This document shows, piece by piece, positions 1 to 59,755 of a stretch of 64,000 nucleotides of DNA (position 1 is its first letter; the number at the start of each line of letters is the position of its first letter). Position numbers and translations under genes: made by a program. Origin of the DNA: Tetradesmus obliquus (lineage: Eukaryota > Chlorophyta > Chlorophyceae > Sphaeropleales > Scenedesmaceae). Location of the stretch: assembly GCA_030272155.1 (NCBI GenBank), contig CP126197.1:4642001-4706000 (forward strand). Reading direction: 5' to 3'. Below the pieces are notes generated by a model that did no database searches, was not told the origin of the DNA, and saw only the letters and a list, made by a program, of their open reading frames with translations.

Positions 1-3000
1 TGTACACGCGTACCGCGGCAAACGGCTCTTCAACCAACTACCAAATAGGTCACAGCAAAAACACCATCGTCCCACACTCACGTGGATGTTGTACCAGCCC
101 TCATACAGCTCATACTCCGGGGCCCAAATGTACGGCCTAGACGTATCAGCCGTTAAAATCCCGTGCTCCATGCTTGTCTTAACATCCCAAGGCGGCCGGT
201 GCATTTCTTGACTGCTGTGCAGAAATGCTATGCAGAGTAACTGTTGAACTGCAGAGTCTGGGTGTCTGAAAGCATCCTGGATGCGTGCAGCACACATGTA
301 CACAACACGGATGCAGGCACACTCACGTGGTTCAATTTGAAACTAGCAATCAATCCACAGCAAGCAATAAAACTACAGGCCCTGCACTGGAGCCGCAAAA
401 GGAGGGAGCACAGCCCCATCAGTTTCTACTGTTTTACTCACGTGGATGTTGTACCAGCCCTCATACAGCTCATACTCCGCGGCCCAAATGTAAGGCCTAT
501 ACGTATCAGCTGCCGGGATCCAGTGCTCCATGCTTGTCTTAACATCCCACCCAGTGCCATTTTTTCATGCTGTGCAGAAATGCTGTGCAGATTAGATTGA
601 CTGATAAACTGCAGAGTCTGGGTGTCTGAAAGCATCCTGGATGCGTGTGACACACATGTATACACCACGGATGCAGGCGCACTCACGTGGATGTTATACC
701 AGCCCTCATACAGCTCATACTCCGGGGCCCAGATATAAGGCCGTGAGGTGTCAGCCGCCAGGATCCAGTGCTCCATGCTTGCCTTAGCATCCCAAGGCGG
801 CCAGGGCATTTGTTTCATGCTGTGCAGAGATGCTTTGCAGATTGACTGTTGAACTGCAGAGTCTGGGTGTCTGAAAGCATTTTGGATACGTGCGGCACAC
901 ATGCGTCAACACAGATGCAGGCACACTCACATGAATATTGTACCAGCCCTCATACAGCTCATACTCTGGGGCCCAAATGTACGGCCTAGATGTGTCGGCC
1001 GCCAGGATCCAGTGCTCCATGCTCGTCTTGACATCCCAAGGCGGCCAGTGCCCATCATCAGTGCGGTTCAGTTCTGATGTGAAGTGCACCACAGGGAACA
1101 GCATGGGCTCTTCGCTGCCTGGGTACAGCGGCATCGGGGGCGGGCTGATGCCTCCGATGCCGACAGCAACTGCAGCAGGAGAGAGAGATGGCAGGCAGAC
1201 AGCGGGGCTCTAACATCAGCAAAATGTGATTGCAGGCAGAAAAGCGGCGGCTGATGCCTTTGTTGCCGCGGAAGCTGCAGCAAGGACAGAGGTTTGGATC
1301 AGCTCCAAGGTGAAGTGCACAACAGGGAACAGCATAGGTTCATCACTGCCTGGGAACAGCGGCATGGGGGGCGGGCTGATGCCTCCGATGCCGACAGCAA
1401 CTGCGGCAGGAGATACAGGCAGGCAGCAGCGGGGCCTCAACATCACGGGAGCGTGAGTGCAGGCAGAAAGGCGGCGGGCTGATGCCTCCGATGCCGCGGA
1501 AATTGCAGCAGAAGGACAGCAGGCGAGCAGCGATGCGGTTCAATTCTGATGTGAAGTGCACGACAGGGATCAGCATGGGCTCCTCACTGCCTGGGAACAG
1601 CGGCATCGGGGGCGGGCTGATGCCTCCGATGCCGACAGCAACTGCGGCAGCAGAGAGATGGCAGGCAGTGTATAGGCAGGCAGCGGCGGGCGTCTGACAT
1701 CAGCGAAATGTGATTGCTGGCAGAGACGGGCTGATGCCACGAATGCCGACGGCAACTGCAGCAGGAGAGTTAGCAGGCCAGCAGCAGCTGGGCCTCAACA
1801 TCAGGGAAGTGTGATTGCAGGCATAAAAGTGGCGGCTGATGCCTTTGTTGCCACGGAAGCTGCAGCAGAAGGACAGCGGTTTGAATTAGCTCTGATGTGA
1901 AGTGCACAACAGGGAACAGCATAGGTTCATCACTGCCTGGGTACAGCGGCATCAGGGGCGGGCTGATGCCTCCGATGCCGACAGCAACTGCAGCAGGAGA
2001 GTGCAGTGGGCAGGCAGGCAATAGCGGGGCCTCAACAGAAGAAAGGTGTGAGTGAGGGCAGAACAGGCGCTGCCTATCAAACGGCGGGCGATGCCGCCAC
2101 TGCTGACGGCAACTGCAGCAGAAGGCCACCAGGCGGGCATCAGCAGGATGCGAGTTACGAACTGCAAGTGCTGACAAGGAAGGCGCTGCCTCTGTGACTG
2201 CAAAGAAGCAACCAGGAGGATGACACAACTGAATGAGTGGGCACCACATGAGGCTCAAGCATACTGCTTTCACCATGCAGGATGCTGAGGGCACAAGCAA
2301 TCTGTGAACACATGCTGGGCTGTGCTGCACTCACATGCTTCAGAGTTGCATGTTGAGAAGCTTGCGCGTGCCCTGGGGAACCCGTCAAGCTTGTAGAAGC
2401 ATACCTGCACACAACAGCATGCAGGATATGCAATTGAGCAGCGCTGCTCCACAGGTAGCGTTTGGAGTCACATGCCGGTGCATGCTGTCAAGGCATGCAT
2501 GCAGTGCTGCTGTGACTGGCTGGACATAGACTGGAAGCATGAATGTCTGCAGCTGTCCAGCTCACTATAGCAGCTGCTGTATTGGAGGGTGTGCCTGCTG
2601 TGTGCCGTACATAGCTGCTGCGTAAATCATCAGCTTGCTGTGACGGCAGTAAAATGCCTTGCTATCTGGCGTTTCGTCAACCTTGCATTGTAAGGACAGC
2701 AGAGCACATGCAGCTTGTGTTGCTTTGGATCAGCTACTCACCAGCCTTGTGGTGCTGAGTTCCTGTGTTGGTACTGCTATTGAACCGGGCATCAGCAGGC
2801 CTGTCCAAGGCAGGATGGTCACACTCACAGACAAGCAGTAGTAGCCCTGTAGAAGGCAAATGCACAAATGTGTGCGTCAGTGTACTTTTGTAGCGTGGTG
2901 AATTGTAGCAGTGTGGCAAGAATCTTCACTCCTGAACAGTAAGGCGGATGGTGTGCATGCGCAGCATACGACATATGCAGCAGCTGCTGTGCATTGTCAT

Positions 3001-3376
3001 GCAAGCACCCGAAGCCCTGCATTCCTTGCCGGCGACTCGCTGCATGCTCTCACCCTAGTTGTTGCTGTCAACTACGCTGACTTCACGTTGTGCATAGCTG
3101 CACAGCAGCTGCTGTGCAGTTGCTTATGCTTTCACCAATCGTGTCTATGAACTACGCTGACTAAACGCTATTCACACTGCTGCTACTCACATCCTCCTTG
3201 TCCTCAAGGTCAAGCACAATCTTGGGTGGAGGAGTGCCCTCTGCAAACTCCCCTAGCACAACCGGCGCACTGTCATTCAGCTGGTACTGAACCCTGAACC
3301 GCGCGGGGTACAGCAGGGTCAGAACAGGCTCCTGCGGCTGCTGCTCCTCTAGTAGCTGAACAGGATGATCGCTGGC

Positions 3377-6223: not shown

Positions 6224-7530
6224 CTACACAAACAGCATCCCAAGGAAAGCAGCCAGCATGGTCACCAGCCCACCAGCAGCGCCCACACTGGATACCCCGC
6301 TTGTCCTGTTCCGGGTCATTGGTGTGCGCATCGGCAGCGCAAGCCCAGAGTCGTTGAACACTGGCTCAGGTGCAGGTGGAGGGGGTGCAGGCGGCTGGAA
6401 CTTCATGTTCTGGCGCCAGCCCCAGGCGCCGAAGAAGATGCCGTTTGCGACAACTTCACCGCACACGTCAGCCAGCACGACCTCGAGGGTGTGGTTGGCG
6501 TTGTCTGCCACCTTGAGGTTCAGCGGAGACTCGCAGTGCACCTGTTGGGGAGTGTGTGTGGGCGCAAGTGGCAGTGGCAGGAGACGGCAATATGTCAGTT
6601 AAGATTCAGGAGCTGAGGTCGCAGTGCACCTGTTAGGAAGTGGCGTAGTTGCGGTGGTTGTGACGAGTAGCGTGTGGCTAGTCACCATGTGGTGAGGCGG
6701 CAATGGCCTTGCACTGCAATACAGCTAGCATGCGCTGCTGCTGTTGCTGCTGCTGGATGAGATCAGGCAGGAACTGTGGGGTCAAGAGCAGCCACACTGT
6801 GGCTGAAACATGCGTCCGAGATGGATCAGCTGTCAGTGCGCCGGCTGGTGCTGTCAGCGATTTTACTACTAAACTGTGCTCATGGCAGCACTGCTGATGT
6901 GCGCCAAACTTCCGCACTCCTCATCTGCTGCTGCTGCCATCCGTACAGTTGCCCTTGCTGCTGCTGCTGCTGCCAATCCAGCCCATCTGCAAAGAGCTCA
7001 AAGACACTGCTCACAACGTCCGCTGCAGCTGCCCGTGGTGTTGCTGCTGTCACTGCTGCCTATATCACAAATCAAACTGCTACAAGCTGAAACATAAAAC
7101 CTAAACCACTCACCAGGTCGGCTGTGTTAGCCACTTGCTGCAGCAACATGCAGCTGCCTTGCTGCTGCTGCCAATGTCGTGCTGCCTACCATTCATCCAA
7201 GGAACTGTAAGCTAAAACCTTAACACACATCCCTTACCAGGTCGGCTGTGTTGGCCACCTTCTGGCCATCCACATAGCAGAACTGCTCGCCATAGCCCTG
7301 GGTATCCCAGGTAAAGGTAGCAGCAGCGCCCAGCTGCACAGGCACATCAGGCCCCTGCAGATCTACAATCTTGCTGCGCACTGTTTGAATCGGCACTGGC
7401 CTGTTGCTGCTGTTGCGCAGCGAGACACCCATGTACTTTGCGCTGCCATCATCATATTGGTCTAGACCAAAGAGGCTGACAAGGTCCGGGTAGGTGGTGG
7501 AGAGGGAGCCCTCAATCCACACCTGTTGTT

Positions 7531-11018: not shown

Positions 11019-13144
11019 CTAGCTTGCGGACATCCTGCTGAGCAGCGCCATGAGCTGCGTGCCGTTGAGGAACTGCGACTGCTCCGTGGCGTCCTCCTCG
11101 TTCTCTGATGCTGCAGGCCGCGGCGGCGGCGGGCCACACAACTGCCCGTCTTGTTCCTGCAAGCACGCAACAGCAGCAAACAGCGTGTCATAAACCTTTG
11201 ATCCCATTAGGATAAATGACTGTCGACGCCAGTGTAGGTCCACTGCCGACATGTACAATGACAACTCTACGTCATCAGCAGCGCAGCTCAGGTTGCACAG
11301 TTGCTAGCAAGCAACTGCTTGCGAGCAGAATCCACAGCGACCGGCAGGCAGCTTGGCTGAAAGCACAGCAGGTGCTGCATACAATCGCCTGCGGTGATAT
11401 AGTTCAATTGCACTCAGCAATTGCCGGACATTGTTGCGAACATCAGTTGCCGCAAGTGTCCTTGCGCCTGCCTGCCAAGCCCCGCTGCACGCCACAGGCA
11501 AGAACCTCTGGCCACCTTGCACACACATGAGGTCTGCACTACACGCCACATGGCACACACTACTGCTTTGCAGCTGTATAAACAACAAAAGCAACGCACC
11601 TGCAGCAAGCTGTGGATGGAGCCCTGCTGCTGGATGCTTCCCTGCCACACGTCGCTGTCCTGCAGTACTGCTGCCAGCGCCGCGCAGTGCAGGTCCTGGT
11701 TTACCGGGTCTGCAGCCTGCAGCAGTGTGTTGGCCACCTCACTGACAAACCCTACCACTGCCGAGCGCTTGCCCATTTCCTGCTTCACTGCTTCGTCAGC
11801 TGCAGGGTGCAACAGGTGCGCAGAAGGAGCGCGCCAAATTGCAGCAGTCAATGTCAGGCAGTGGACAGCGCAGCGTGGTGAGACGAGGATAGCACAACAG
11901 CATTGGTGCTGCAAGCTGCATGGCAGGCACAGCAGCGCTGTGCAGCACACAACTCAGCTGACTGCTGCGAAGCGCATACCAAACCATCACAGGCATGACA
12001 CAGCTCCTTGATGACCGCAGCGCAAGCTGCCGAAACCACAGCCAACATGTTCATAAGTACAGCACATAGCGCAATTTACATAAACAAGAAACCACACAGC
12101 TCTCCCTGCAACCCTCACCCACCTATCTGCACCAGGGCCTCATGCAGCGGCTGCAGCAGCTGCTCGCTGCCTGCCTGCTGCAGCCCGCAGCCGAGCCCTG
12201 CTGTAAACAGCCCCTGCCACAGCTGCGGCACGCTGCTCAGCAAGCTGCTGCGCAGCATCTCTGCTGCCCTGCACTGCACCGCGCTGCAGCGCTCATGCTG
12301 CAGGCTGAGTGCCACAGCCACCGGCAGCAGCTGCGCATCACACACCGCCTTGTCAATGACCGGGTTGTTGTGCAGCAGCAGCATGTGCAGGTTGGCACAG
12401 GCCCACACCCTGTGGCTGCCTACTGCTGGCTGTGGTGCTTTGCTGCTGCTCTGTGTGAGCTGCGGCTCCGGCTGCAGCTGCAGCACCTGCTGCAGCAGCC
12501 CGAGGTGCTCCAGCACTGCCCGGAAGTGCGGCCTGAAGTCCTGCAAGCCAGCCTTGTCCTGCAAGCGACGCATGAACAGCAGTATCAGCATGCACGTTGA
12601 TGACAAACAGCACAGGCCATAGGCTAAGCCCGGGTGTTCCACGCTGCTTGAGACCTGTGCTGATGCTCACCATTGACCAAGATCTGGCCGCGCATCTCTG
12701 CATGCAGACCCTTTGCCCTCCTCTTCACAGGCATCAACCCCTGAACACACACTCACAGACACATGCATGCCTATGCAAAACCCTGCGCACCTCTACTGAT
12801 GGCATGGAGCCCATCTCTGCATGCAGATCTGTCACCCTCCTCTGCACAGGCATCAACCCCTGAACACACACTCACAGACACATGCATGCCTATGCAAAAC
12901 CCTGCGCACCTCTACTGATGGCATGGAGCACATCTCTGCATGCAGACCTTTCACCCTCCTCTGCACAGGCAGCAACCCCTGAAACACACACTCACAGACA
13001 CATGCATGCCTGTGTGCAAAAGAACCCTGCGCACCTCTACTGATGGCATGGAGCCCATCTCTGCATCCAGCGCCCTGCTGACCACCAGCAGCGCCTCCGC
13101 CAGTGCAGGAATGCTGCTGCGGCCGCCAGGCAGCAGCCCAGACA

Positions 13145-13181
<37 letters not shown>

Positions 13182-16660: not shown

Positions 16661-19068
16661 ATGTGCACCTTGTTTGCACTGCAGGCGCATCGGCAGCTGC
16701 GCAGCAGCAGCACAGGTAGCTGTGCTGCCCTGCATAGTCGTCCCATCTCGCACAGGCGCGTGGGACAGCGCTGCAGGCCTGTGCTGAACGGTGGCAGCAA
16801 CTCTACTGCTCCAAGCAGCCTGCCTGCAGCATTCAAGCGGGGTTTGAGCATGATCTGCCAAATGCTGCATGGCAATGGAACAGACAGTGTAGTGCCAGAA
16901 GAGGCACCTGTAGCAGCAGCACCTCCTGCAGAGGCGCCAGCAGCAGAAGCAGCAGCTGCAGAGCCCCCTGCACCTGCAGCATACAGCGACCCCTTTGCAG
17001 CGCGTGCAGAGCACAACAAAAACGGGCACGCCTTCATCAAAGTGGTGGGCTGCGGAGGTGGCGGCGGCAACGCCATTGCGCGTATGATCAGCACTGGCCT
17101 GCAGGTATGTGCTCTGCTTGTTCAAAACACGTTTGCGATGTGCTGATGATGCTTCTTGCACACAGCAGGTTGCGACAGCAGCAGTGTATGCATGCAACAG
17201 GCGCTCCTGCAAGCAGAGCTTGTCTGCAGTAGCGTATGGTAGGCCTGAGCATGCAGATTGTTTATAACGAGGCATGCTGGTGGGAGCAGCAGTTGCTTGA
17301 GCAACGCATCACCTGCAGCTGCATATGCTGCGGTGGATATGCTTGCACCCCTGGGACCCCCCAGGCTGTGGGCCTGCAGCACAGCAGCGTGGCACTGGCA
17401 CAATCCTGGCAGCAGGTATGCGCGCCCGATTATCTGGTTTTAATCATCCACAGAACATCGAGTTTCCTGAACACGGATGTGCAGCCGTTGGACTCTACAA
17501 TCTGCTGCTTGCCTGCCTGCCAGTCTGCCTGCCTTTTGACGCATCTGCCCATTTCTCACCCTTCTATAACGCCACAGAACGTCAAGTTGCGGGCCGCGAA
17601 CGCAGACAGGCAGCCACTGGACTCCAACATCGGCTGCCTGCCTGCTTGACTTTTGGCACACCTGCCTGTCTTTTCGCACCCCTGAAACGCTGCAGAACGT
17701 GGAGTTCTGGGCCGTGAACACAGACAAGCAAGCCCTGGACTCCATCATTTATTGCCGCCTGCCTGCTCTTTTACACACAATTGCCTTGTTTTCTGCAGAA
17801 CGTGGAGTTCTGGGCCGTGAACATAGACAAGCAAGCCCTGGACTCCAACATCTGCTGCCTGCCTGCCTGCCTCGTGACACATCTGCACACCTTGATTCAT
17901 GTGTCACTCATCCGCAGAATGTCGAGTTCTGGGCCGTGAACACAGACAAGCAAGCCCTGGACTCCAACATCTGCTGCCTGCCTGCGTAGTTTGCTCTGCT
18001 GAAATGCCGCAGAACGTGGAGTTTTGGGCCGTGAACACAAACAGGCAGCCACTGGACTCGAACATCTGCCGCCTGCCTGCCTGCCTGCCTTCCCGCCTGC
18101 ATGCATGCCTTCTCACACAACACATCTGGTTACACATCTGCGCGCCTTTTTTAAATTATGTACCCGCAGAACGTGGAGTTCTGGGCCGTGAACACAGACA
18201 AGCAAGCGCTGGACTCCAACATCTGCCACCTGCCTGCCTTTTTACACACACCTGCCTTGCTTTCTGCAGAATGTCGAGTTCTGGGCCGTGAACACAGACA
18301 AGCAAGCCCTGGACTCCAACATCTGCTGTCTGCCTGCCTTCCCTCCTGCATGCATGCCTTCTCACACAACACATCTGGTGACACATCTGCGCGCCTTTTC
18401 TTGTTTATATATCCGCAGAACGTGGAGTTCTGGGCCGTGAACACAGACAAGCAAGCCCTGGACTCTAACATCTGCCCCAACAAGCTTCAAATCGGCACGC
18501 AGCTCACGCGCGGCCTGGGCACGGGCGGCAAGCCAAGCCTTGGGGAGCAGGCAGCACAGGAAAGCGTGGAACAGCTGGGTCAGGTGGTGGCTGGCGCGGA
18601 CATGCTGTTCATTACGGCGGGCATGGGCGGCGGCACAGGCACTGGCGCTGCGCCTGTGGTGGCGAGGCTGGCTAAGGATGCAGGCATCCTGACAGTGGTG
18701 AGTAATTTGCTGTAAGGAAGCAGCTGGCAGTGTGTGTTTGTGGCAGAATGTGCAACAGGAATGCACAACAGAGGTGAGTGAGTGAGAGGAGAGCTTTGTG
18801 ACAGCAGCTGCGAGGGTGACAGGGATGGGGAGCAGCGCAGACATGCAGCTGGAGCGCAGGATGTCTTCAGCAGCCAGATGGCTGGCCAAGGATGCGGGCA
18901 TCCTGACAGTGGTGAGTCAGTGAGAGGAGAGTGTTATGAGAGCAGCTGGGAGTGTGTGTTTTTGTGACAGGAATGTGCAGCAGCGCAGACATGCTGGTGT
19001 GAAGTTGGTTGAGAAGAGTGTGGAAGCCATCTGTGATGTGTTCAGGGTGTGCTACAGCGTGGGGGTGC

Positions 19069-19118
<50 letters not shown>

Positions 19119-21089
19119 GTGTGTAGGGTGTAGTGACGTACCCTTTTAGCTTCAAGGGCGGCTGTAGGGCCACCCAGGCGGTGGAGGGCATTGAACCGCT
19201 GCTGCTGCTGCTGCTGCTGCCTCTCCTGTGTGTGTAGGGTGTAGTGACATACCCCTTCAGCTTTGAGGGCAGGCGCAGGGCGACGCAGGCCGTGGAGGGC
19301 ATTGAGACGCTACGCCGCAACGTGGACACGCTCATTGTCATCCCAAATGACAAGCTGCTGGATGCTGTGGGCGGAAGTAACACGTCACTGACGGAGGCGT
19401 TTGCGCTGGCTGACACAGTGCTGCGCCAGGGCGTGGGCGGCATCTCAGACATGATCACAATCCCAGGGTGCGTCATCACAACAAACAATGAGGCTGGGAA
19501 GTCAGTTGTGCTTCCGCTGAATATTAATACCTAAGTGCATCAACACACACGCCACCTTTGGTGCCGCCTGGTCTCAACAACAGCTGTTGCAGTTTCCACG
19601 CCTAGCAGGCGCTGATGCAAGACAACCTGCACTAAGCTTGGCCTTGCAACGACCTGTACATCACGCAATGGCGCGCAGGCTGATCAGCGTGGACTTTGCG
19701 GACATCAAGGCGGTGATGCAGAACAAACGAATGGCAACCCCTTCACTTACGTCATGACTGTGTGTGGTGTGCTGTGATCATGCTGCCTCGCAAGCTGATC
19801 AACGTGCGCTTGCGGGCATCAAGGCAGTGATGCAGAACAAACGGATAACACCTCTTTCACTCCTTTTGCAACTGTGTGTGTTGTGCTGCCCTTGTGACAT
19901 GCTGCTCTGCAGGCTGATCAACGTGGACTTTGCGGACATCAAGGCAGTGATGCGCAACAGCCGAATGACATCCCTTGCCACTCCTGTTGCAACTGTGTGT
20001 GTGTTGTGCTGCCCCTGTGACCATGCTGCCTCGCAGGCTGATCAACGTGGACTTTGCGGACATCAAGGCAGTGATGCGCAACAGTGGCACGGCAATGCTG
20101 GGGGTGGGATACGGCGTGGGCCCGGACCGCGCGCTGCAGGCAGCATACGGTGAGCAGGAGCTGTTTTGCACGAGAACAGATGCTGGGGTTGCAGGTGCTT
20201 GCTGTGGTGGATGCCAACAGCAGCTGCGGTTGTACTGCCCTCGTCATTGTTTGTTGGTATCCACATCTTCTGAACTCGAGCCAGTCGGTAAAATGAGGCG
20301 TTGCTGCCCATCCACTATGCACAACTGTGTGTTGTGTGCTGCTGCGCATGCAGGCGCCACCAATGCGCCGCTCATCCAGTCCACCATCGAGCACGCGACT
20401 GGCATCTTGTATAAATCCTTGTTAATTGATCAAGCTGGTTTAGCCACTCCCTTATATTTTGGCCGTGTGTGCTGCATGCAGGCGCCACCAACGCGCCGCT
20501 CATTCAGTCAACCATTGAGCGCGCAACTGGCATCGTGTACAACATCACCGGCAGCAGCAACCTCACGCTGGCTGAAGTCAATGCCATCAGCGAGATTGTG
20601 ACAGCGCTGGCCGACCCATCCTGCAACATCATCTTCGGCTCCGTGATAGATGAGGAGTGCCCGCCCGAGGAGATCCGGGTGAGTTATAGTATGAAAGCAT
20701 GTGTTATAACAGTGTCACTTGGGATGAAGCTGCAGCTGCATCAGCTGTTCTTCTTTCTCTACATCTGGCATCGTGTACAACATCACTGGCAGCAGCAACC
20801 TCACGCTGGCTGAGGTCAATGCCATCAGCGAGATTGTGACAGCGCTGGCCGACCCGTCCTGCAACATCATCTTCGGCTCAGTGATAGACGAGGAGTGCCC
20901 GCCCGAGGAGATCCGGGTGAGTAACGGGTGTTGTAACGGTGTAGCTGGTATGAGGCCGTCACTGCCCAGGCTGGTCCCAAGCCTGTAAAAATGAGCCCGA
21001 TATTCTACCAGCTGGGCTCTGTTTAGTCCGCTGATTCATTTTGCGTGCGCTGGCTGTTGAGCACGACTTCCCTGCTGCTGCTGCTGCTG

Positions 21090-21120
<31 letters not shown>

Positions 21121-25907: not shown

Positions 25908-28900
25908 ATGGTGCGTACCTGCTTTGGCATGGCGCCAAGCCTGGACCGTTCAAGTGCAGGACCTCATGTGCTCGTTGTTCTGCTTGCAGAACCGCCTCAA
26001 CAGGCAGCAGAAGGATAAGGTCACGCAGTTCAGGTCAATCACAGGCGCCAGGTGCGGGGCTGTCTCAGCCTGCAGGAGCAGCAACAACGGCAGCAGCAGC
26101 AGTACGGCAAACTGCCTGCTGCAGTGAACTGATCGCTGGTTCGCTATATGCAGTGTCCACCTTAATTCAAAGTTGTTCATGCCACTTTGTATGCAACAAG
26201 CCAGCAGACGGCATGTGCAGCGGGCCCAACAAGGGTTTCCCGCAGACGCTGCTGTGCATGTGCAACCTCCACCACCCGCTGCTGTGCATGCTGTGTTTGC
26301 CGTGCTGCGCTGCTCCCTGCTGCAGCGACAAGCAAGCCTTGGATTGCTTGAAGCAGGCGGGATGGAGCGTAGAAATGGGCATAGAAGTGTTCTTCAGCTT
26401 GGGCATGCAGGGAGGCAGCGTGATGGACACACGCGCCATTGAGCAGCTGTACCTCAAGTACAAAGGTGCGCCGGCAGCAGCTGCTGCAGCGGGGGCGGGA
26501 ACGGACATCTTTATGTCATCTGTTGTTGTTTATCATCATTGTCAGCTAGACATGGCCGGGGTTGCACAGGCAAGCGGGACTGTGTGACAGCACCAGTATC
26601 AGGCCAGCAGGCAGGGTAGCCATGCATTCCCATGGCAGCAGCAGCCTCAAGTGCTTTTGCGTGTATGGCCGTGCTGACCACTGCTGCTCTTTGATTCGCT
26701 CTGCTGCTGCTGCTGCCTGCTGCTGCAGACCCGCAGCAAGACATGATCCTAGCAGACGGCATCAGCAGGCTGTGCGATGACCTGGGGGTGGAGCCCACCG
26801 ACATAGTGCTGGTGCGTATGGCTGCAGCTTGCCTGTTTCTTTGTTTGAGATAAGCGCAATGCAGCGCAATGGTGTGCAGCGAAGCAGGCCGTGGGTAGAC
26901 GTAGCAATGGTGCGTGGCGGCGCTGCTGGCCCTGCCTGTGTCTTCGGGCTGCAGTGCAATGCAGTGCAATGGTGGTTCAGCCAAGCAGGCAGTGGTGTAG
27001 ACGTAGCGTTGGTGCATATGGCTGCTGCTGCTCTGGCGGCCTTTGCATGACGCAGTGCAGTGAGGTGCAGTGGTTTGGATAGTAGAGGTACAGCCAAGCA
27101 AGCACTAGAAGAGACATAGTGCTGGGGCGTGGCTCAGAGGGATGGATGCTTTGCACGATTGCATGTCTGTTGCTGTCTTCCAGGCGGCAGTGCAGTGTAG
27201 CAGCTGGCACAAGCTGTCGACCCTAGGTGACAGCGCATTGAGGCAGAGTAGCGCAGTTGAACTGGCAGGTGGTGCAGCAGCTGCTGCGGTTGTGGCTGTC
27301 GCTGACCAACAGTGTTGTGGACACAGAAGCTGCGGCCACTGTGACACCAACCCTGCTGGTCAGCGACAGCCAGCAGCAACAGCCGCATAGATTGCGAGCT
27401 GGGGTGGTGATATAGTCAGTGCTCTTTTCTGGAGGAGCTGTGTTGCACCGACATATGACTCCTTCTCTTTTGCTGCTCCCTCCGTCTCTCCCTCCATCTC
27501 TTCGTCTCTTCTTCCCTCTCTTCCCTCCTTCCTCATTCTCTCTCTCTTCCTCAGTCTCCCTACCTTAGCTGCCTTTCCTGCATTCGTCTCTGGTATACTT
27601 AAATCCTGCGTCTGTAAACCACTTTCTCACCAGCCTTCTGTCTCTCTGTGTTCTTGTCTTGTCTCTTCCCCGCAGCTGGTGATCAGCTTCCACATGGGCG
27701 CCAACATCATGTGCAATTGACCACACTTCTGCCTCCCTGCACCCCTCCTGCAACCCGTTGGTTGTGTCTGTTCACTGCACATTTTTTTGCCTTTGAGGCA
27801 CCTGTCTTCATCCTCGGCTGCTGATCAGCTCCTATGTGGTGCCTGGACCATCTGTAAACCACTTTCTCACCTGCTTTCCCTCTGTCTGTCTTTCTTCCCT
27901 CCCTGCATCCGCAGCTGGTGATCAGCTTCCACATGGGCGCCAACATCATGTGCACTCCCGCCACACTGCATGCCCACCTCAACCACATCGAGTCAATCTG
28001 TGCACTGCACTTGTCTTCTGCATCCGCAGCTGGTGACCGGCTTTCACTCAGCCGTCGGTTTCTCTTACTTGGTGCCTACACCATTGGTATAGACCACCTT
28101 CGCACCTTGGCTTATATCTCTCTGTCTGTCTTTCTTCCCTCCCTGCATCCGCAGCTGGTGATCAGCTTCCACATGGGCGCCAACATCATGTGCACTGCCG
28201 CCACACTGCATGCCCACCCCAACCACGTTGAGTCAGTCTGTGCACTGCACTTTGTCTTCTGCATCCGCAGCTGGTGATCAGCTTTCACTCGGCCATCAGT
28301 TTCTCTCACTTGGTGCCTGGACCATTGGTAGAACACCTGCTCAGTCGCCTTCTCTTCTTTGTCATCCCCTTCTGCATGCGCAGCTGGTGATCAGCTTCCA
28401 CATGGGCGCTAACATCATGTGCGAGTACTCGCGCGACGAGTGGGTCAGCGGCATGACGCGCATGGCCACAGACAGCCTCGACAAGCTGCGGGCCAAGCTG
28501 CCAGAGCTGCGCGCGGAGCTGCGCGACCCGGCGCGCTTCCAGGAGGTGTACAGCTTCGCCTTCGGGTGGGCGCGCGAGGTGCGGCTTGTGTGTTGTATGC
28601 AACTTGCTTAGTAAAGTGACTGCTGGCTGCCAGCTGTGGCTTTTTGGCTGTTGTTTGGTGCGGCGCTTGTTGCATTGAGCAGGGGGTGTACACCTAAGCC
28701 TTCGGCTGGGCGCGCAAGATGCGGCGGAGTGAACGGATAAATGGACTGGCCAGCTGTCAATGGTGACCTAATTAGCGGCTGTCCTTGTGGGCCGTTGAGG
28801 AGGTGCGGGAACAGGATGGGAGGTAGAAAGAGCGCGTGCCTGTGCCATTGCTGCAGGTGCTGGTTACTCTACCAGTGCGTTAGCGGCCATGCTCAGCGTG

Positions 28901-30140
28901 CTTTGTGTGTCTTTCCTCTTTTGCAGCTGCAGCTGTTTGGTGATATGTGCTCTTATTAACCCTTTTGCCTCCCCTGCCTGCTTGCCTGCTGCTGCACCAC
29001 TGCTGCCATCATCCCGTACCCTGCGGCGGCTGTCCCACCCGCAGAAGGGCCAGAAGTGCCTGCAGATTGAGACCGCGCTGGCAATGTGGCATTGCAACAA
29101 CTGCTCTTGCTGATTCTTCGCCGCCTGCCTGCCTGCCCGCCCGCCTTCTGTCCCACCCGCAGAAGGGCCAGAAGTGCCTGCAGATCGAGACCGCGCTGGC
29201 GATGTGGCAGCTGCTGTACGCAGACGACCGGCACTGGCAGTACATCGACGACTGGTGCGAGTTCCTGCAGACGCACCACAACAGGGCCATCAGCAAGGAC
29301 ACCTGGGTGCAGCTGTTCCAGTTCACGCGGGTGAGCGCTGGATGCTGTAGTTTTGTAACACCGCATGTGCGCGCATGCATAGCACATGTGCTGTAGATCC
29401 ATCAGCAAGGACACCTGGGTGCAGCTGTTCCAGTTCAAGCGGGTGAGTGGGGTGGTGCTGTAAACTTGTAGTTCATGCATGCAGAGTTGTGTTTGTGCTT
29501 TTGTGCTGTAGAATCTGTGATCAGCAAGGACACCTGGGTGCAGCTGTTCCAGTTCACGCGGGTGAGCGCTGGGTGCTGTAGGTGTGTAGTGCATGTATGC
29601 GCAGTTGTGTTTGTGTTTGTGTGCTGTAGATTCTGTGATCAGCAAGCACATCTGGGTGCAGCTGTTCCAGTTCACGCGGGTGAGCAGTGTGTTGGCGTGT
29701 ATCTACTGTTTACTGCTGCAGCAACCGCATGGATGCAGGTGGACAGCACAGTGAGGTTGCGTCTTTGTTCTGCATGCGGAGGGGCTAGGTATGCGTAGTT
29801 TGCTGCAGCTGCTCACAGTCAACATCCGTGCCACCGGCAGACTGTCAGCAGACTGCCTGCTTGTCCAGCACAACCTTGCTGGCTGGCACCCGTTGCGCCT
29901 GCTGTTCTTCACTGGTCTCTTTTCTCTGCCATTTCACGATTGCATCGCCCCATGCCCCTTGTTCGTCAACCTTGTCTTCTCAAGTTTCACTCTTCTCTCT
30001 CTGTTTGATTTGCGCACTGCCCCCTGCAGCTGATCAAGCCCGACTTCAGCAACTTTGACGAGGCGGGCGCCTGGCCGTACCTCATGGACGAGTTTGTGGA
30101 CTTCATGAAGAAGAAGAACAACATGGCAGTGGACAGCTGA
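25908..30140 (+). CDS. DCUN1D: DCN1-like cullin neddylation protein (253 aa)
   Basis: Scaffold-type NEDD8 E3 that helps the E2 UBC12 modify cullins; nuclear/cytosolic. Exons: 25908-25910 (the ATG alone), 25990-26051, 26326-26465, 26729-26811, 28384-28578, 29163-29330 and 30030-30140. They total 762 nt, in frame. The N-terminus MNRLNRQQKDKVTQF matches the family start MNKLKSSQKDKV and is a UBA-like domain (about 1-45). The PONY (cullin-binding) domain fills the rest, with KYKDPQQDMILADGISRLCDDLGVEP, CEYSRDEWVSGMT, ISKDTWVQLFQF and FSNFDEAGAWPYLMDEFVDF. The length is close to human DCN1 (259 aa). Choosing the isolated ATG is supported by the spliced N-terminus. The true exons 4, 5 and 6 are all bordered by tandem junction copies. 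Confidence 0.96.
26885..27130 (+). repeat. Donor-end copies of DCN1-like exon 4
   Basis: Degenerate copies of GACATAGTGCTG + GTGCGTATGGCTGC have exon-like ends at 26909, 27011 and 27124, versus the true end at 26811. Spacing is 98-113 bp. CAATGCAGTGCAATGGTG blocks of intron recur with them. Confidence 0.75.
27455..27566 (+). other. Polypyrimidine tract of about 110 nt
   Basis: Almost pure C/T (CTCTTCGTCTCTTCTTCCCT and similar) in DCN1-like intron 4, just before the first of the exon 5 acceptor copies. It may act as a strong 3' splice-site enhancer. Confidence 0.8.
27670..28310 (+). repeat. Acceptor-end copies of DCN1-like exon 5
   Basis: CGCAG followed by CTGGTGATCAGCTTCCACAT (VISFHMGANIMC) occurs at about 27677, 27915 and 28155, alternating with shorter diverged forms at about 28030 and 28271. 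Spacing is about 115-125 bp. The true exon starts at 28384. The third full copy continues into a repeated block CCGCCACACTGCATGCCCAC also seen after the second. Confidence 0.93.
28696..28735 (+). repeat. Donor-end copy of DCN1-like exon 5
   Basis: CCTTCGGCTGGGCGCGCAAG followed by ATGCGGCG resembles the exon 5 end TTCGGGTGGGCGCGCGAG + GTGCGGC, about 140 bp downstream. The donor GT has decayed to AT. Confidence 0.7.
29033..29090 (+). repeat. Acceptor-end copy of DCN1-like exon 6
   Basis: CCCACCCGCAG plus the first 45 nt of exon 6 (KGQKCLQIETALAMW) sits about 120 bp before the real exon at 29163. The two differences in the exon part (ATT/ATC, GCA/GCG) are synonymous. Confidence 0.94.
29397..29690 (+). 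repeat. Three donor-end copies of DCN1-like exon 6
   Basis: ATCAGCAAG...CAGTTC[AC][AC]GCGG + GTGAG (SKDTWVQLFQFTR) recurs at about 29400, 29520 and 29638, at a 118-120 bp period, after the true donor at 29330. The second copy matches the exon end exactly over about 42 nt. All keep GTGAG donors. Confidence 0.95.
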
Positions 30141-40900: not shown

Positions 40901-41252
40901 GCACATGCCATGCACTCAGAATTCTCACCAATGCCAGCATCACGGCAGAGCTGCTGGCTCCCTTGGCTGCCATGATAGTCACTCCAGCACACTTTTGAAA
41001 TGTATGAACTGACAACCTGTCAGTCACTCACCAGTGCCAGCATCACGTCAGCACTGCCTGCCCCCCCAGCTGCCAGCACCTGGCCCAGGAAGGCATCAGC
41101 CATGCTGTAGGAGTACATGTCAGCAAAGCCAAGGGTGCACATGGCAGCCAGGGCCAGCGCCTGCAGGGCCTTGTAGCGCGCTGTGTTGGCGGAGGTTTGG
41201 CGGCTGCTGCTGCTGCTGCTGCTGCTGCTGTGTGGGGCTATCACGCTGTGGT
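37918..41252 (-). CDS. Major facilitator superfamily transporter (5' end unresolved)
   Basis: Membrane transporter of unknown substrate. Minus-strand exons: from about 41252 to 41032, then 40648-40610, 40392-40236, 40015-39932, 39496-38709 and 38403-37918; phases match at every join. The last five total 1554 nt. Twelve-helix MFS features: helix 1 around LALAAMCTLGFADMYSYS, the short loop/helix exon GIDGVATCVMAVV, the helix 4-5 motif ITACRAFHGAATA then LAPQQHLALGIAVLSAGCSA and GDSVGPVLGAIVFDRSG. A long Ser/Gln-rich central loop with IADS repeats follows helix 6, then six C-terminal helices (for example VGAVSGPFALEAYLSRW and HVSMCMYMIALALGAGVGN). The order is closest to drug/vesicular-amine-type carriers. 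The exon at 41252-41032 has no in-frame ATG before helix 1 except within it, so either an upstream exon is missed or translation starts at MCTLGF. Confidence 0.8.
39281..39322 (-). repeat. 12-bp tandem repeat in the MFS loop
   Basis: AATGCTGTCAGC repeated three times in exon 5, encoding IADS units in the central loop, next to a CTG (Ser) run. Confidence 0.9.
39825..39842 (-). repeat. Donor-end copy of MFS exon 4
   Basis: GTGCTCAGCGCAG recurs 105 bp downstream of the exon end at 39932. The donor is changed from GT to AT. Confidence 0.6.
40927..40965 (-). repeat. Donor-end copy of MFS exon 1
   Basis: GTGATGCTGGCA[TC]TG + GTGAG recurs with an exon-like end at 40929, 103 bp past the true donor at 41032. 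Confidence 0.75.
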
Positions 41253-43206: not shown

Positions 43207-46200
43207 TCACCTTGAAGTATCCGTCCAGGTGGTTCACCATGGTGGCCTTCTCGCGCCCCTTGCCGTAGAACTTGAGCGTGAGGATCAGCCAGCCGCCTGC
43301 ATGCGCAGCAACAGAATGAAACATGTGGGTTGTGCAGCAGCACTGCCAGAGAACTTCAGATTGAGGATCCACATAGCGCGTAGGCATGCTGCTGCACTGC
43401 CGTAGGAGATGGGCCGGCCGCCTGCAGGCGCAGCGTGTGGCCGAGTTCAACTGGCGAGTTGCACTGCTGGCCTGGATACACCTCTGTATACTATCTGGCC
43501 CTTTCGGGGACTTTTGGGGCCTGTTCGGGCCTCTTTCTGTTGAGCCTCACCTGGCTTGAGCTTTGTCAGCAGCGGCAGCAGGTGCTCCCCCACGCGGATT
43601 GGGTGGTCGTTCATGTCGCACACCAGCAAATCAGCCTACACGCAGGATACACAGCAGTTGAACAGCAGTGAGGCTTTGGGTCATGTCCACAGCAGAGGAG
43701 CAGAGTAACAGCTGGCGCGTGACGGCTATCAGCAGTTGAAGCAGCATCAGGCTGCTGCTGTGTTGCTGCCTCCCAACACATGTGCCGTTTCGCCAACAGA
43801 AACTGACCCTCCTGCTTGCACCTCTGCTGCCGCTGAGCATGTGGCTGATCCCCACTGTGCTCACACGCCCCTGTCTGCCTGTCTGCCATGCAGCAGACGC
43901 CTTGACAAGCCCCTACAACAGCACAGACGCTGCACCCAGCTAGCTGACCAGATCCCTGCCTCTCGCAGCGCACCCGCTGCCCTGCCAGCACCTCATCCAC
44001 CTGCTGCCCCAGGCTTGCACTTCTGCCGGCAGGAAAAACTCCACACAAGACACTCCTGCTGCGAGCTGTTGCTAAAGAAACGGCTCATTCCCACTGCATT
44101 GAGTGTGGACACGTATCCCTGCCTGCCACACAGCAGCATCCTTTTTCCACCCCCAGGACACCGCATACAAGCCCGCCAGCATGATGGTGTGCTCACTCCC
44201 CCGCCTCTCGCAGCCAGTGAGCGCACCTGCTGCCCTGCCAGCACCTCGTCCACCTGCTGGCCCACTTCTTGTGCCTTGCCCAGGATCTGGTGCACACGCG
44301 GCCGCGCTGTTACATCAGGGTGCAGAGGCGCTGGGTCAACTGCCAGCACATGATAGCCGCAGCTGTCTGCAAGGTAGCTGGTCCAGCCGCCAGGGCATGC
44401 CCCTATGTCAATAGCCCAGCGGATAGGCTGCTGCTGCTGGTGGTTGCCGTTTGCTGCTGCTGCTGCTGTGAGCTGCGTGGCTTGCTGCTGCTGCTGCTGC
44501 TGTGAGGCGGCAAGGGACTGCTGCTGCAGCAGCTGCTGCCTGTCAGGGGCGTGCTGCAGCCCGATGACCTGCATGGCTTCTGCCAGCTTGTTGATGGCCT
44601 GCAGCATCAAGCAGCAGAGATTGTGAGGGGTTCAACATGAACAGCTAAGCAATACAGAGAAGCCAGATAGAGCAGAGCAATAGAAGTGTGGCAGCAGCGC
44701 AGGCACATCAACAGCGAGAGGCAGCAGCTGTGCATGCCAGCAGGCGACACAAAGTACCGCAGCACGCTGGCGCTGTCATGGCGCTGTCATGGGACCTGCA
44801 GCTGTCTCATGCTGCTGTTGATGTCAGCGCATCTGGTGCGCATGCAGGCTCAACAATAGTAAACTTGTCAACACAGCAGAGCCAGCAGCTCTATGCTGTG
44901 CTGGTCAGTCAAACAAATGTAGATGTGGCCACCCGCATTGCTCACCGTGGCCACGCTCTTGTCAAAGCGTGCTGGTGCCACAGAGGACATCTTCCAGGCC
45001 TGCACTGCTGGCATGTAGCTCCAGCGGATGCAGCTGGGCGACAGCTGCACCACATACAGCACGTGGCTGTACTGCACGGGGTGCATGGGGTGCGGGTAGC
45101 CAGCTGCGCAGATCCTGCGCTGCAGGAGGTGAATGTGCAGGAGGTGCACATGTGGTGTTCAGGCTGCTGCAGCTGAGACCAGGCTGCACAGCCATTTGAA
45201 GCCTGAGGCAATTGCCAGAACCACACGAGCAGATTGTGGCACAGCAACCAGCTGAAAGAACACGTCTGTTGCTGTACACCACAAGGCCCTGCACAGTGCT
45301 TCCGCAGCATACATGCTCACCCGCTAGAAAGCCTGGTAGCATTGTGCTGCCTTGATCAGCTGCCATAGTGTGATGCAACTGCAGCTGGCAGGCAGCTACT
45401 ATATGTTGAGCTCACCCCAATGTCCAGCTGCAGGCTCTTAGGGAACACGTCTATGCGCACAGCTGTCGCGCCAGCCGGGGTGGGCGCAGCCGCCACGGTT
45501 GTGACCAGCTCCTCCCTGCAGGAATCAAAAGCACAGTGTTACCAAGCTGCTGGGTGATGAAAGAGTGATAGATGTGTCGAGCATGTCCCCAAGACACCTC
45601 CCAAACATGACTAGCTTTGCTCTTCACGGAATGAAGAGCACCGCGTGCTGCATGGCTGCCGTAGCAACTGGTGTCGGCACAGGCCACTGCGGCTGCTGCT
45701 GCTGCTGCTATGTCTTGAGCCGCTTGCATGAGCAGCACGCAAAATGACAGGCAGCAGTATGGTGCATGGCGCATAACTTGTACACAGGCCTGCTCACCAG
45801 CTGCCTGCTGCTGCTGCTGTGCTGCGCTCTAGCCAGAACACCCGCATGCACACGCGCCCCACAAAGCAGCGCAGCAGCCACGCATCCAGCTGCTCGGGGG
45901 TGATGTGCACATTCTTGAACAGCACCAGGCAGGGACCTTCAGAGTCTGCAGTTGATGTGGCAGAGGACAGGAGGGTTTGCAAGCCTGAGTCAGCACTGCT
46001 GTGGGCAGCAGGGAGTGAGATTGCTGCAGCATTGGCATCTCTACAGGCATGCTTGCCCGTACTGTTGATCAAGCCATGCTGTGCAAGAGTAGCGTATTTT
46101 GTAAGGAAGATGCATGAGGAAAGTGCTGGGGAGGTGGTATACAAAGCAGCGGCAGCAGCGTTCCTTGTGCAGGATGGCAGTGCCGCTCCCTCACCTGTGT

Positions 46201-55900: not shown

Positions 55901-56531
55901 CTTTGACCTAACCCAGCCCCCGCCACCTGCACCTGTGACAGGCTACAGCAGGCTCTGCGTGGTGGTGCTGGCGGATGGCACCTGGACACCCATCAGCTGC
56001 ACGCGCCAGCCTGCCAGCTTTGCCTGCCAGCGCACACCTGAAGGGTGGTCATACCAGGCGGTGGCATGGGACAACGCCTATGAGTCACAGTGCCCAACTG
56101 AAACATACATCACAGCATCTGCCCTTGGCCAGCCTGTGAAGATCCTACTACGAACTTACACGCCTGCAAACGGCAGCACATATGCCAACATCAGGGTTGT
56201 GATGGATCCTCAAAACGATTGTGCATTGCAGGCAATGGGGTACAGCTACTGGTCTACTGCGATGATACCTTTGAACCCTGTGGCGCGCCTACCTTCGTAC
56301 ACATACACATTCCCTGCCCCTGGGGATGCTGGCACTTCAGCAGACCACTGCGCTGTCACAGCAGTTTTCAGGCCTGCGTTTGGCACGACTGCACTCCTCT
56401 ATGCCCGCATAGCACAGGTGCATGCGGGGACATTTTTGGAGATCCTTGGCAGAGTACGCCTGGCTAGTGGTGTTGCCCAGCCTGTACGGGGTGCTGTCAA
56501 GTTTTTGTCCAAAGTGACTGGCTCTGTATGA
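46990..56531 (+). CDS. Secreted Cys-rich / C-type-lectin-like modular protein (2023 aa)
   Basis: Extracellular adhesion or wall protein; ligand unknown. Seventeen exons: 46990-47068, 47352-47501, 47667-47828, 48089-48259, 48444-48743, 48919-49524, 49699-50310, 50519-50680, 50837-51013, 51171-51443, 51924-52529, 52704-53315, 53548-53709, 53872-54051, 54385-54636, 54783-55418 and 55600-56531. The sum is 6072 nt, exactly in frame. Exon 1 is a signal peptide (MNKVHHWFKLILITTLCWLP). Module A is GCC2/GCC3-like (CPPGFYLSDVGECTVCPAGS). B is VT[MK]PG.GY.V...CPVGTYNS. C is GYY....C.VGTYQP. D is VTLPGWY...CPANTYNNGG...NTEDICG. E is a lectin-like domain with WSDWSAPDYPGM and ending YVCA. F is a second one (DFEAAASICASHGLQLASAH to SFACQR). 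The order is A-BCDEF-A-BCDEF-A-BCDEF-tail, three units. No transmembrane segment was seen. N-glycosylation sites are frequent. All introns are phase 1. Confidence 0.85.
48936..50320 (+). repeat. Lectin-domain duplication, copy 1
   Basis: About 1.38 kb covering most of exon 6, its intron and exon 7 is repeated 3005 bp downstream with no difference that I could see, intron included. Flanking modules are clearly diverged. Confidence 0.93.
51941..53325 (+). repeat. Lectin-domain duplication, copy 2
   Basis: Matches 48936-50320. After the exon 12 donor the two copies begin to differ (TTTCAACAGG/TTTTAACAGG), and they diverge fully within about 150 bp. Confidence 0.93.
54790..56040 (+). repeat. Lectin-domain duplication, copy 3 (diverged)
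   Basis: The first ~340 bp are almost identical to copies 1 and 2. The middle (QYMYNSYNSGNLLSML...) is different and longer, and the second lectin domain shows scattered changes. It ends in a unique C-terminal tail instead of module A. Confidence 0.9.
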
Positions 56532-57717
56532 AGGCAGTTCCATTCAGTACACGCATCAGGCAAGCAGAGTCTTCACATCTTCACAACGTCAATCTTTGAA
56601 ATGCATTTTGACCTCAGAGATGGTCTTGGTCACGTGATTGCATTACCATCAACCTACAAGTTGTGGTTGTGAGCATAGACTTCCAAGCAGGTCATAAAGG
56701 AGCCTTGGTATTCGTGAAGCTGTTGGGTGGCAATGCTTTGCATGTGCCCTGCCTGGGGTAGGTGCAATCAGTTGTAGCGCATGAAGACCGTAAATCGTTG
56801 CTTCAAATCAAATAAATGCATGTGAGCGTTGGACTGCACTGGCTCTTGTTCTGTTCTTCTTCAGCACACATTCATGGCGCGAATGCATACGGCTTAGCAT
56901 ACAAGACACAGGGGTGTCTTGATACCTAAATACAGTATTTGCATCAATGTGCTCATAAGTGCATCATCATGAAAGTTGTCTTTCAGCTGCATTGTTGCTG
57001 CTCGGCCAACCCAAGTGCTGTGGTGCGCCATGCTGCATGAAGTTGTTTGAGAGTAGCGCCCTTCAAAGGGCTAGCCCAGCGCTGTGGGTGTACCGCCCCT
57101 GCAGCCATCATGATCATAGTTGTTACCTGTGGCATCGAATCATCATTCAAATCTTGCCTCGTTTGATATGTTACGTTCCTGATCATAGTCAGTTCTTGTG
57201 CTCCACAAGGCAAGCATATTGACCCACAGTGTGGTGTTGCTCATGCATCGAGTTCACCAGAACTCTGCATCAGCAATCAATCAGGCAGCTGTTGTACTTG
57301 GTATGGCTCTGTTTGGCACGCGTGTTCATCACCTACGCATGCCTTGCAGCAGCAAAAGGCCATGCTGCTGCCGCACCTTCCAGAAAGACAGCATGCAGCT
57401 GGCCTACGTGGCAGCACTCAGTGTTGTGCAGCAGTTGTTACTGGTGTGTCACAAGTCACGTGCCAGGCACTGCGCCCTGTCAGCAGGTGCTCTGTTTCGC
57501 ATTGCGACTTCGTCGCACATTGATGTGCTGGTACGTACAGCAGCACATGTAACTTATGCCTGCAAGTACATGTGAGCATTGCAGAATGGCTCCATTTCGC
57601 GGCAAAGCCCGCTTCGTGCGAAAACACTTCAGTGCAACAATTGATGGAGTTTAAACAAAGCAATATACTGACAAGCATCTTTAACTTTAAGGTGGAGTCG
57701 AGCTTCTCGTCCTGAGC
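56532..57717. other. Intergenic, lectin gene to SHIPPO gene
   Basis: No gene supported. It contains the 3' UTR of the lectin gene (AATAAATGCATG near 56810) and the upstream region of the next gene. Confidence 0.55.
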
Positions 57718-59755
57718 ATGGGCAGGCCGAAGGGTGCTGCTGTAGTGCTGCACACTGCCCCAGCTTTCTCGTTTGGGCACAGCAGCGCTGCTGGAAAAAC
57801 AGTAGACGAAGCCGGACCTGGTCCTGGTGCATACTGTCCCAAAGGTGCAGCCAGCAGCAGCAGCCTCAGCTGCAAAGGAGGAGGGTTTGGCACCAGCGGG
57901 CGTCTGGCACCATATGGTGGGTGTGGCTTGCTGCCATGCTTGTGATTTGCCTTGCAGTGGCAGCCTGCTGCAGGAGCGTTTCATCCAAAGGCTTGCAGCA
58001 GGCAGTGCACATGGAATTTGGACTGTTATGGCAGCAATCCTCTGCTCAGCTGCAGCATGACGTGCATAGGGTGTAGCATGCGTGCATACAGTCGCATCTC
58101 TTGCGCGTGTTCATCATGATAATCCGTGTTTGCATGCAGTGCATAGAGGTTGATAGTAAGCTACTAGAGCACGCCCAGCAGCATGGCAGCAATTCATTTG
58201 TTGCAGGCAACCAGAACCCTGCTCCTGGAGAGTACAATGTCAGCCTGAAGGTGACCCACAAGCGGGCACTGGCAGCAAGCCTGCAGGGAAGAGAGTCGCA
58301 TGGTGAGCAGCAGCAGCAGCAGCTGCTGCCAGCTACATGCGTAGGCTGCATCAGATACTTACATAGCACACATGAGTGCTGATGGTGTCTGCCGCATGTT
58401 GCAGCAGCTTAGCTTGGCATGGCATGGTCACATCCCATGCCTCAGCCCACAGCATTGTGCGCAGATACTGCATACAGGTGGCAGCAGAGGCAGACCAGAA
58501 ACTAGCTGCAGCACACACCACTAGCTCTGGTTTTGGAGAGGGGCTGTGGTGTCAGGCGCCCCAGCAGTGCTGCTGCGGGTGGTCACATGCACATGCTCGA
58601 GCTCATGCACGCAGGTTTTGTGCAGGGTAGCCTGATTATCGTAAAGTATATTGCTCTGATGGCTCTGCTCTGCATGCCCGCAGACCCTCTCAAGCAGCAG
58701 CAGCCAGGGCCAGGGCAGTACCCGGAGGTGCCTGCAGCCATCACACACCCTGCGCCGCCAGCAGTCAGCATCAGCCACAGGCTGCAAGGCAGCAGGGAGG
58801 CGGAGCGGCGCCCAGCACCAGGTGAGGCACGCGGCAGCACTTGCTTGCAGGAAAGATGTGTGCAACTATCACTTACTAAATTACAGTGCTGGCAGGACTC
58901 CTGCAATCCAGATAGAGATAAAGGCAGCAGTGAGGCAGAGCGGCGCCCAGCACCAGGTGAGGCACGCTGCAGCACTTGCTTGCAGGAGTGACGTGGGCAA
59001 ATGTGCAGGCAAAACTCCTACAACACAGCTAGAGAGAAGGCAGCAGGGAGGCGGAGCGCCGCCCCGCACCAGGTGAGGCACGATGCAGCACTTGCTTGCA
59101 GGAATGATGTGTGCAACTGTCGTAGTGCTGGCATAGTGCTGGCAGGACTCCTATGACACAGCTAGAGATATAGGCAGCAGGGAGCGGCGCCCAGCACCAG
59201 GTGGGCGGGTGCTCGCAGTGCTGCTGTAAGGCCCGCTGCAGCACTTTCTTGCAGGAATGATACTACAGCTGTGCTTGCAGGCTTCAGGAAGAGAAGCAGC
59301 TAGAGATGAAGCCAGTGAACAGCACTGACACGTTGCCAGCAGCGAGAACACCAGGAGTGCCAAAAGCGTCAGCAGCTGATGATCGTGCAACTGCTCCATC
59401 TGCTGCTGCTGTCCTGCAGGCGAGTACCATCCTGAGCTGTTCCGCTCCACCTCGCCGCTGCCTGTGACCATGAAGCACAAGCGCGGCCTGCCAGCAGGCG
59501 ACAGGCCCGACTCGGGGCACGCAGTGCCGGGGCCCGGGGCTTACAGGCCGCAGGATGTGACAGTCAACAGCCGCGGCTCGCCTGTTCATACAATCGCAGG
59601 TACATGCAGCACAAGACAACGGCAGCAGGTGCTGCCCATCAAGTTGCATGCCACCTGCTGCCAGCAGCTGCACTACACGGCACATATCAAGCTACAGCCT
59701 TACCGCTTTGTCACACTATCAAACCTGCAGCAACATGTCATAATGCTTGCTCAGC

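Follow-up and report, generated by a model that had tools for sequence, protein, structure and literature searches.

Widespread copying of exon edges into neighbouring introns in sampled DNA of the green alga Tetradesmus obliquus

In the genome assembly of the green alga Tetradesmus obliquus (GCA_030272155.1; 104.66 Mb in 17 contigs), a 64,000-nucleotide stretch of contig CP126197.1 (positions 4,642,001-4706000, hereafter the window) contains predicted introns into which the edge of an adjoining exon, together with its splice site, has been copied in direct orientation, in many cases as a tandem array, and the same arrangement recurs at sites sampled elsewhere in the assembly. This copying of exon edges into neighbouring introns is confirmed as real and widespread in the sampled DNA: across 304 kb, a copy of the adjoining exon edge is present in 92 of 319 testable predicted introns. 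An earlier note on the window had reported tandem copies straddling the exon-intron borders of its genes, and these were recovered both by self-BLAST and by a junction search. Throughout, an exon-edge copy within an intron is termed a decoy, the exon edge with a few nucleotides of adjoining intron is termed R, and the spacer is termed F, so that the layout of a two-copy event is R-F-R'.

The 304 kb comprised the window and 14 sites on 13 contigs, divided into a first set of 264 kb (the window and ten 20-kb sites from nine contigs) and a hold-out set of four 10-kb sites on four further contigs (40 kb), for which the gene model was frozen. Sampled sites outside the window are labelled S9, S21, L022, L025, L027, L029, L031 and L032, and minus-strand positions of the example loci are counted on the reverse complement. 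Exons and introns were called from DNA only, by a self-trained gene finder written for the study, and all introns and junctions are accordingly predicted. The gene finder recovers conserved proteins, but it fuses some genes, breaks up others and frequently takes decoys for exons; because it labelled the copy as exonic in 53 of 112 events, the counts depend on the gene model, and a stricter recount was made in which 27 of 423 exons were removed as decoy-like and the search was confined to the inside of each intron. The GC content of the window (54.6-59.1% in 4-kb steps) can be set beside the 57% GC and mean intron of 462 bp given for the species in PMC5966456. Runs of CTG/CAG are numerous throughout the window and draw false acceptor calls in gene prediction.

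In the junction search of the 264 kb, an intron-side copy was found at 56 of 286 donors (19.6%) and 56 of 287 acceptors (19.5%), while none of 1146 shuffled segments reached the same score threshold, which excludes chance. Control segments had a copy in 0.5-8.5% of cases, and segments from exon interiors were copied in 3.5-7.0%, as against the roughly 19.5% seen for junctions; copies on the wrong side (11.2% of donors, 7.0% of acceptors) are attributed to decoys that had themselves been predicted as exons. The hold-out set agreed, with copies at 10 of 42 donors and 11 of 43 acceptors and controls of 0-14%. The stricter recount gave copies in 67 of 291 introns, at 46 of 300 donors and 36 of 302 acceptors (hold-out, 11 of 37 introns).

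Self-BLAST yielded 15 local direct-repeat arrays in the window, covering 7452 bp (11.6%), and 57 more at the ten other 20-kb sites, for a total of 72 in 264 kb and about 10% of bases; it returned no inverted local copies. When 74 short repeat pairs from the 304 kb were classed (37 longer pairs being left unclassed), 55 touched a predicted junction, 10 were intron-only, 5 were intergenic or mixed, and 4 were exonic. The arrays are widespread and lie predominantly at splice junctions, which supports this part of the earlier note. Copy-bearing introns are longer than others (median 294.5 versus 265; 478 versus 260.5 after removal of decoy-like exons), in part because a long intron offers more room in which to find a copy; of the suggestion that introns are actively expanding, this length difference stands, and no signature of intron birth accompanies it.

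In 85 events, the shared segment R includes 49 nt of exon and 9 nt of intron at the median; its intron part does not exceed 15 nt in 55 of them and is longer in the remaining 30. This splice-site-limited end is the unexpected part of the finding. At donors (n=56), identity between exon and copy is 0.91 at +1 to +3, falls to 0.55 at +7 and 0.45 by +8, and continues at about 0.43 over +11 to +20 and about 0.3 far away, whereas at acceptors the fall is more gradual, starting from -4. Between decoys, too, identity is lower past the border (about 0.71, with a background of about 0.6) than before it (about 0.85; 45 pairs). The splice dinucleotides are retained, as had been claimed, in 72 of 85 copies (GT in 43 of 50 donor copies, AG in 29 of 35 acceptor copies).

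The spread of single-step offsets is narrow: they average 125 with a standard deviation of 16, leaving an F of about 68 nt (57 rows, with some pairs seen from both ends); over the 304 kb, no offsets lie below 80, with a peak at 110-130 and a recurrence near 220-260. Of 133 offsets, 71 fall at 100-150, and others near 220-260 and 300-400. Offsets are equal with and without alignable intron flanks (125 versus 123; n = 30, 41; p = 0.62), and eight of ten intron-only pairs, some of them decoy-decoy pairs, are spaced at 97-157. Many longer arrays start and finish with R, and their spacers are mutually similar. Direct, near and narrowly spaced repeats, the ordinary trait of tandem duplications and minisatellites, are thus present here. 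An exception to the offset floor is a long satellite at L032 (~4400-5870; offset 58) that overlaps a predicted minus-strand donor, and L022:7326-7967 (S21 17326-17967) holds an almost perfect minisatellite (99.7%) with offsets at multiples of 32, each of its units containing TTTCAGGTGAGT and hence an acceptor-like and a donor-like site.

The constant direction noted earlier, with acceptor copies upstream of the exon and donor copies downstream, holds as a pattern of geometry and carries no biological signal of its own, because any duplication that spans a border leaves a truncated copy on the intron side: whichever copy is still continuous with the exon body counts as real, and the truncated one lands in the intron. 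A founding duplication of this kind accounts for the orientation, step length, direction and exon-side ends of the copies, and is further supported by the behaviour of F, the offset less R, which shrinks with increasing R (r = -0.78); a duplication unit with the border at a random position would behave in this way.

Comparison of flanks indicated that many events did include intron DNA, since similarity is higher between matched than between unmatched flanks (p = 1e-12 for 49 donor events and 4e-9 for 35 acceptor events, multi-copy arrays included); flank homology exceeds the 95% null in 57 of 113 events, and their offsets are the same as those of the others. Nevertheless, both flanks matching at equal age, the trait of whole-unit duplication, is absent from most events: in the 60 events whose exon parts share an identity of 0.90 or above, the adjoining intron averages 0.70 over a background of 0.58, and only 16 of them reach 0.80. 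Whole-unit duplication therefore occurs, and something further keeps or makes the exon edge young. Decoys of differing similarity coexist out of order within arrays, for example at S21 15653 and at the FtsZ exon start 18419.

The reading that we tentatively favour, at a strength slightly under the balance of probability, is that junction-spanning duplications of about 118 bp founded the arrays and that the exon edge was then copied anew. Genes of the alga acquire direct duplications nearby, at a step close to 118 bp, and one that spans a border leaves, as geometry, spacing and orientation show, a full exon and a truncated edge in the intron; with the full exon kept, the protein is unharmed. 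The intronic edge and its splice site may subsequently be re-copied from the living exon, by slippage or by gene conversion between the direct repeats, and the surrounding intron DNA, having no template, would drift. R-F-R' units would result, further slippage would extend them into (R-F)n-R arrays, and the copies would be neutral passengers that lengthen introns. The sharp end at the splice site needs either re-copying that is limited to the remaining homology, or copying that itself stops at the splice site.

Several observations weigh against this reading. Newborn duplications with matching intron flanks are scarce, and the re-copying itself was not observed. Among 18 events that have one further copy and an exon part at least 0.95 alike, the intron part reaches 0.85 in 3, lies at 0.70-0.85 in 3, and is below 0.70 in 12, at least four of which are end units of longer arrays; clear R-limited cases are S21 13811 (with a second, older copy), L029 9300 and L031 2487. 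The intron identity of two-copy events does not follow their exon identity (0.68, 0.61, 0.67 and 0.61 by class). Were slippage doing the re-copying, mismatches should be commoner at that end of a decoy which bears the splice site; the decoys have a mismatch rate of 0.078 over the first 8 nt, 0.06 over 8-24 and 0.12 over 32-40 (66 events), a gradient that does not favour simple slippage turnover. Finally, exon-decoy differences are distributed 78:82:220 by codon position (85 events), more than the twofold excess that a neutral decoy should show, unless mutation is faster at third positions.

A close rival, possible if on the whole unlikely, is a templated insertion anchored at the splice site, in which an intronic break or stalled end about 60 nt from the junction would copy 25-90 nt of exon edge and rejoin (P-R-F-Q becoming P-R-F-R'-Q), its end point being set by the splicing machinery or by an RNA:DNA hybrid. 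Such an insertion fits the sharp drop in donor identity past +3, the rarity of copied exon interiors, and young cases without flank similarity at L029 9300 (54/55, ending at the predicted exon end), L031 2487 (45/45), S21 13811 and S9 19246. It gives no reason, however, for the offset rather than the spacer being constant, nor for that offset being equal to the one in events with homologous flanks; the flank homology of half the events and the 30 copies that run more than 15 nt into the intron also speak against it, and no known mechanism would produce it. Pyrimidine content divides in the same manner: decoy acceptors without flank similarity lie near background (0.524, n=21; real acceptors 0.571, background 0.513), as templated insertion would have it, whereas all decoy acceptors pooled lie above background (0.566, p = 0.008). 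A bolder proposal, likewise possible if on the whole unlikely, is that DNA copying linked to splicing takes the first or last 25-90 nt of an exon with the splice-site consensus and scarcely anything past it, and inserts this segment in direct orientation into the adjoining intron, some 118 bp off. The splice site itself would determine where the copy stops, for example by way of nascent RNA retained in the spliceosome, and introns would be continually lengthened.

Ordinary border-crossing tandem duplication followed by neutral decay, in which exon edges remain recognisable longer solely through selection on one of the copies, is an improbable account. It explains the direct orientation, spacing, direction and exon-side ends, and full duplications do exist (window 19087-19311), but it predicts about 0.90 identity for the intron flanks that average 0.70 where exon parts are at least 0.90 alike, and so is contradicted for most young events. 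A test of erosion is provided by three tandem gene copies at window 48870-56600. Copies 1 and 2 show no difference in the 612 nt of exon 2 or the 174 nt of intron 1, and copy 3 has diverged by 9% in exon 1 and by 18%, with 7 gap columns, in intron 1; that intron did not erode fast enough for simple decay, and a rescue of the model would need a much higher rate of mutation or indels in introns.

That decoys might be kept by selection for a role in splicing (as competing sites, poison isoforms or alternative ends) appears quite unlikely from the sequence. The retained GT and AG, the conservation step at the splice consensus and the richness of exon-decoy differences in third positions would suit such a role, but the dinucleotides are retained no better than the rest of the copy, and the modulo-3 classes of the offsets (32/48/33) show no significant bias (p = 0.12). 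Of 66 cases, hypothetical use of the decoy donor would bring in an in-frame stop in 55, shift the frame in 9 and leave a clean extension in 2, so that the reading frame would be broken in 64 (a count made without a null). A coding function, raised by the third-position excess, was weakened by the near-neutral pattern of decoy-decoy differences (169:116:205 by codon position, a mild third-position bias in 14 hand-chosen arrays with non-independent pairs); the codon patterns together suggest neutral decoys beside a constrained exon, with some third-position excess left over.

An introner-like mobile element, dispersed and making long target duplications as it inserts, would give a similar repeat-spacer-repeat layout and merits hardly any credence, since the repeats (25-90 bp, with a median shared exon part of 49 nt in the 85 events) are far longer than the 3-9 bp target duplications given for introners in PMC9860276, and 12 of 13 spacers, hand-chosen among events whose exon parts are identical at a level of about 0.93 or above, match only themselves in a genome-wide search. 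As far as tested, a dispersed-element origin was thus rejected for spacers and arrays, the FtsZ array likewise matching a single place. The remaining spacer, otherwise unique, holds a dispersed piece of about 70 nt (L025:9878-9949) that occurs at 16 other places at 85-93%. No gene paralogue showing the ancestral state of window 11000-30600 or of L027 was found among 39 of 1067 and 39 of 111 scored candidates, respectively, where one may have been missed; the same searches gave repeats, short matches and distant FtsZ-like exons.

The window encodes FtsZ, DCN1, the 20-kDa subunit of NADH-ubiquinone oxidoreductase, an FtsJ-type methyltransferase, a protein with SHIPPO repeats and a major facilitator superfamily (MFS) protein scoring slightly under the Pfam cut-off. 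Of the eight genes in which the earlier note had placed copies, junction copies were found in seven, two minus-strand genes at 0.37-3.5 kb and 6.2-9.3 kb being taken as its genes A and B, and the MFS case was found in an adjacent model. Gene A carries a donor-end array at 73..1051 (junctions 931 and 656; offsets 245, 360, 605 and 849) and an array that mixes acceptor-end and donor-end copies at 1062..2139 (offsets 103-114, 231 and 355). Gene B has a weak exon-edge copy at 7109..7264 on the minus strand (offset 124; scores 44 and 45), and the likewise weak MFS case is a minus-strand donor-end copy at 40924..41075 (real donor 41031, offset 103, score 48) in a model at 40.2-41.4 kb that lies directly upstream of the MFS model and is probably its 5' part. 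Also on the minus strand are the donor-end array of the leucine-rich repeat gene at 12690..13070 (junction 13035, period 119; exon copy and two decoys), where segment-pair coordinates suggest a further partial copy and the array ends part-way through a copy, and the methyltransferase donor-end copy at 43967..44264 (offset 253; 45 bp at 93%). The SHIPPO-repeat gene has a plus-strand donor-end array at 58786..59203 (real donor 58822; offsets 135, 251 and 379).

In the plus-strand FtsZ gene, an acceptor-end array of 8 copies at 17517..18476 lies upstream of exon start 18419, the exon having a synonymous TCT where all seven decoys have TCC or TCG, and is followed by a donor-end copy at 18666..18994 (real donor 18698, offset 214), the full tandem duplication at 19087..19311, which spans an acceptor (exon start 19238, offset 111), an acceptor-end array at 19674..20084 (three decoys and exon start 20037) that was unique in the genome search, an acceptor-end copy at 20334..20542 (exon start 20482, offset 128-131) and a donor-end copy at 20524..20922 (161 bp shared at 96%, offset 238), where both copies end at GTGAGT. 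The predicted decoy peptides are missing from the best structural homologue. In the DCN1 gene, also on the plus strand, an intron-only tandem repeat at 26853..27074 (offset 100) shows the same spacing without an exon part. It precedes an acceptor-end array at 27611..28422 (exon start 28384, period ~240), a donor-end copy at 28540..28725 (real donor 28579, offset 140, score 55), an acceptor-end copy at 29030..29209 (62 bp at 97%, offset 118), for which the similarity of spacer and outer flank is not significant (flank p 0.059), and a donor-end array at 29287..29685 (exon edge and three decoys, period 112-119). Homologues of DCN1 run from the first donor directly into the exon at 30030, which identifies the copies from 29401 to 29685 as decoys; the closest proteins (80-89% identical) mostly bear transcript-style labels, and the nearest named homologues, from Raphidocelis and Monoraphidium, are 62-64% identical. 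Elsewhere in the window, a perfect two-copy tandem duplication of 46-bp lies at 41563-41656, and a dispersed element of about 150 bp at 21748-21900 occurs in at least 16 places at 79-93%, on both strands, among the matches listed.

Tandem duplicated, mutually exclusive exons are functional copies within one gene that are used in turn; the copies described here, by contrast, are partial exon edges and apparently neutral. Motifs at the exon-side ends of decoys form a weak, mixed pattern, with an acceptor-like motif in 30% of donor decoys versus 22% in spacer (n = 23) and a donor-like motif in 36% of acceptor decoys versus 12% (n = 25). Among the systems nearest in form is a potato RdRp gene in which a tandem duplication crossing an intron-exon boundary created a new intron (PMC4974935): there too a direct duplication over the border adds splice signals, but at one locus and with a new intron, whereas here about a quarter of predicted introns are involved, no intron birth is seen, and mostly the exon edge is shared. 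The model of tandem genomic duplication of AGGT (PMC3443670), which the earlier note had invoked, is alike in its local direct duplication carrying splice-site sequence, but it duplicates exonic AGGT so that both sites bound the new intron; intron birth by such duplication was rejected here, since none of 342 introns exceeded the 99.9% null for in-register similarity between its donor and acceptor surroundings, and homologues of FtsZ and DCN1 join the exons on either side of the copy-bearing introns without a break. Neointrons of Daphnia, attributed to repeats at staggered double-strand breaks (PMC4202315), share intronic direct repeats and a copy of the adjacent exon end, but there the repeated exon pieces measure 4-12 bp and are a sign of new introns, as against mostly 25-90 bp, narrow spacing and arrays. 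Direct repeats reported at or near exon-intron borders (PMC11782384) are 4-30 bp (mean 11.4), lie at the two ends of one intron and form an insertion footprint, unlike the longer copies of one exon edge found here. Introners (PMC9860276), known from algae, are alike in their intron-associated gain of sequence but form dispersed families, whereas here each tested copy or spacer belongs to a single locus, apart from one piece of a spacer. Partial gene duplications of MSH1 (PMC10487979) are a different phenomenon.

The expectation that no system of this form had been described held in searches of open papers, which yielded no genome with about a quarter of its predicted introns bearing exon-edge copies. 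The observations bear on the lengthening of introns and on the question of how a splice site persists when strong look-alikes lie nearby. They also serve as a warning for gene models, as automatic annotation of such genomes may take copies for exons much as the gene finder did here. If the sampled rate were to hold genome-wide, an extrapolation, the alga would offer thousands of natural junction duplications of varied age on which mechanisms of duplication and of splice-site choice could be tested.

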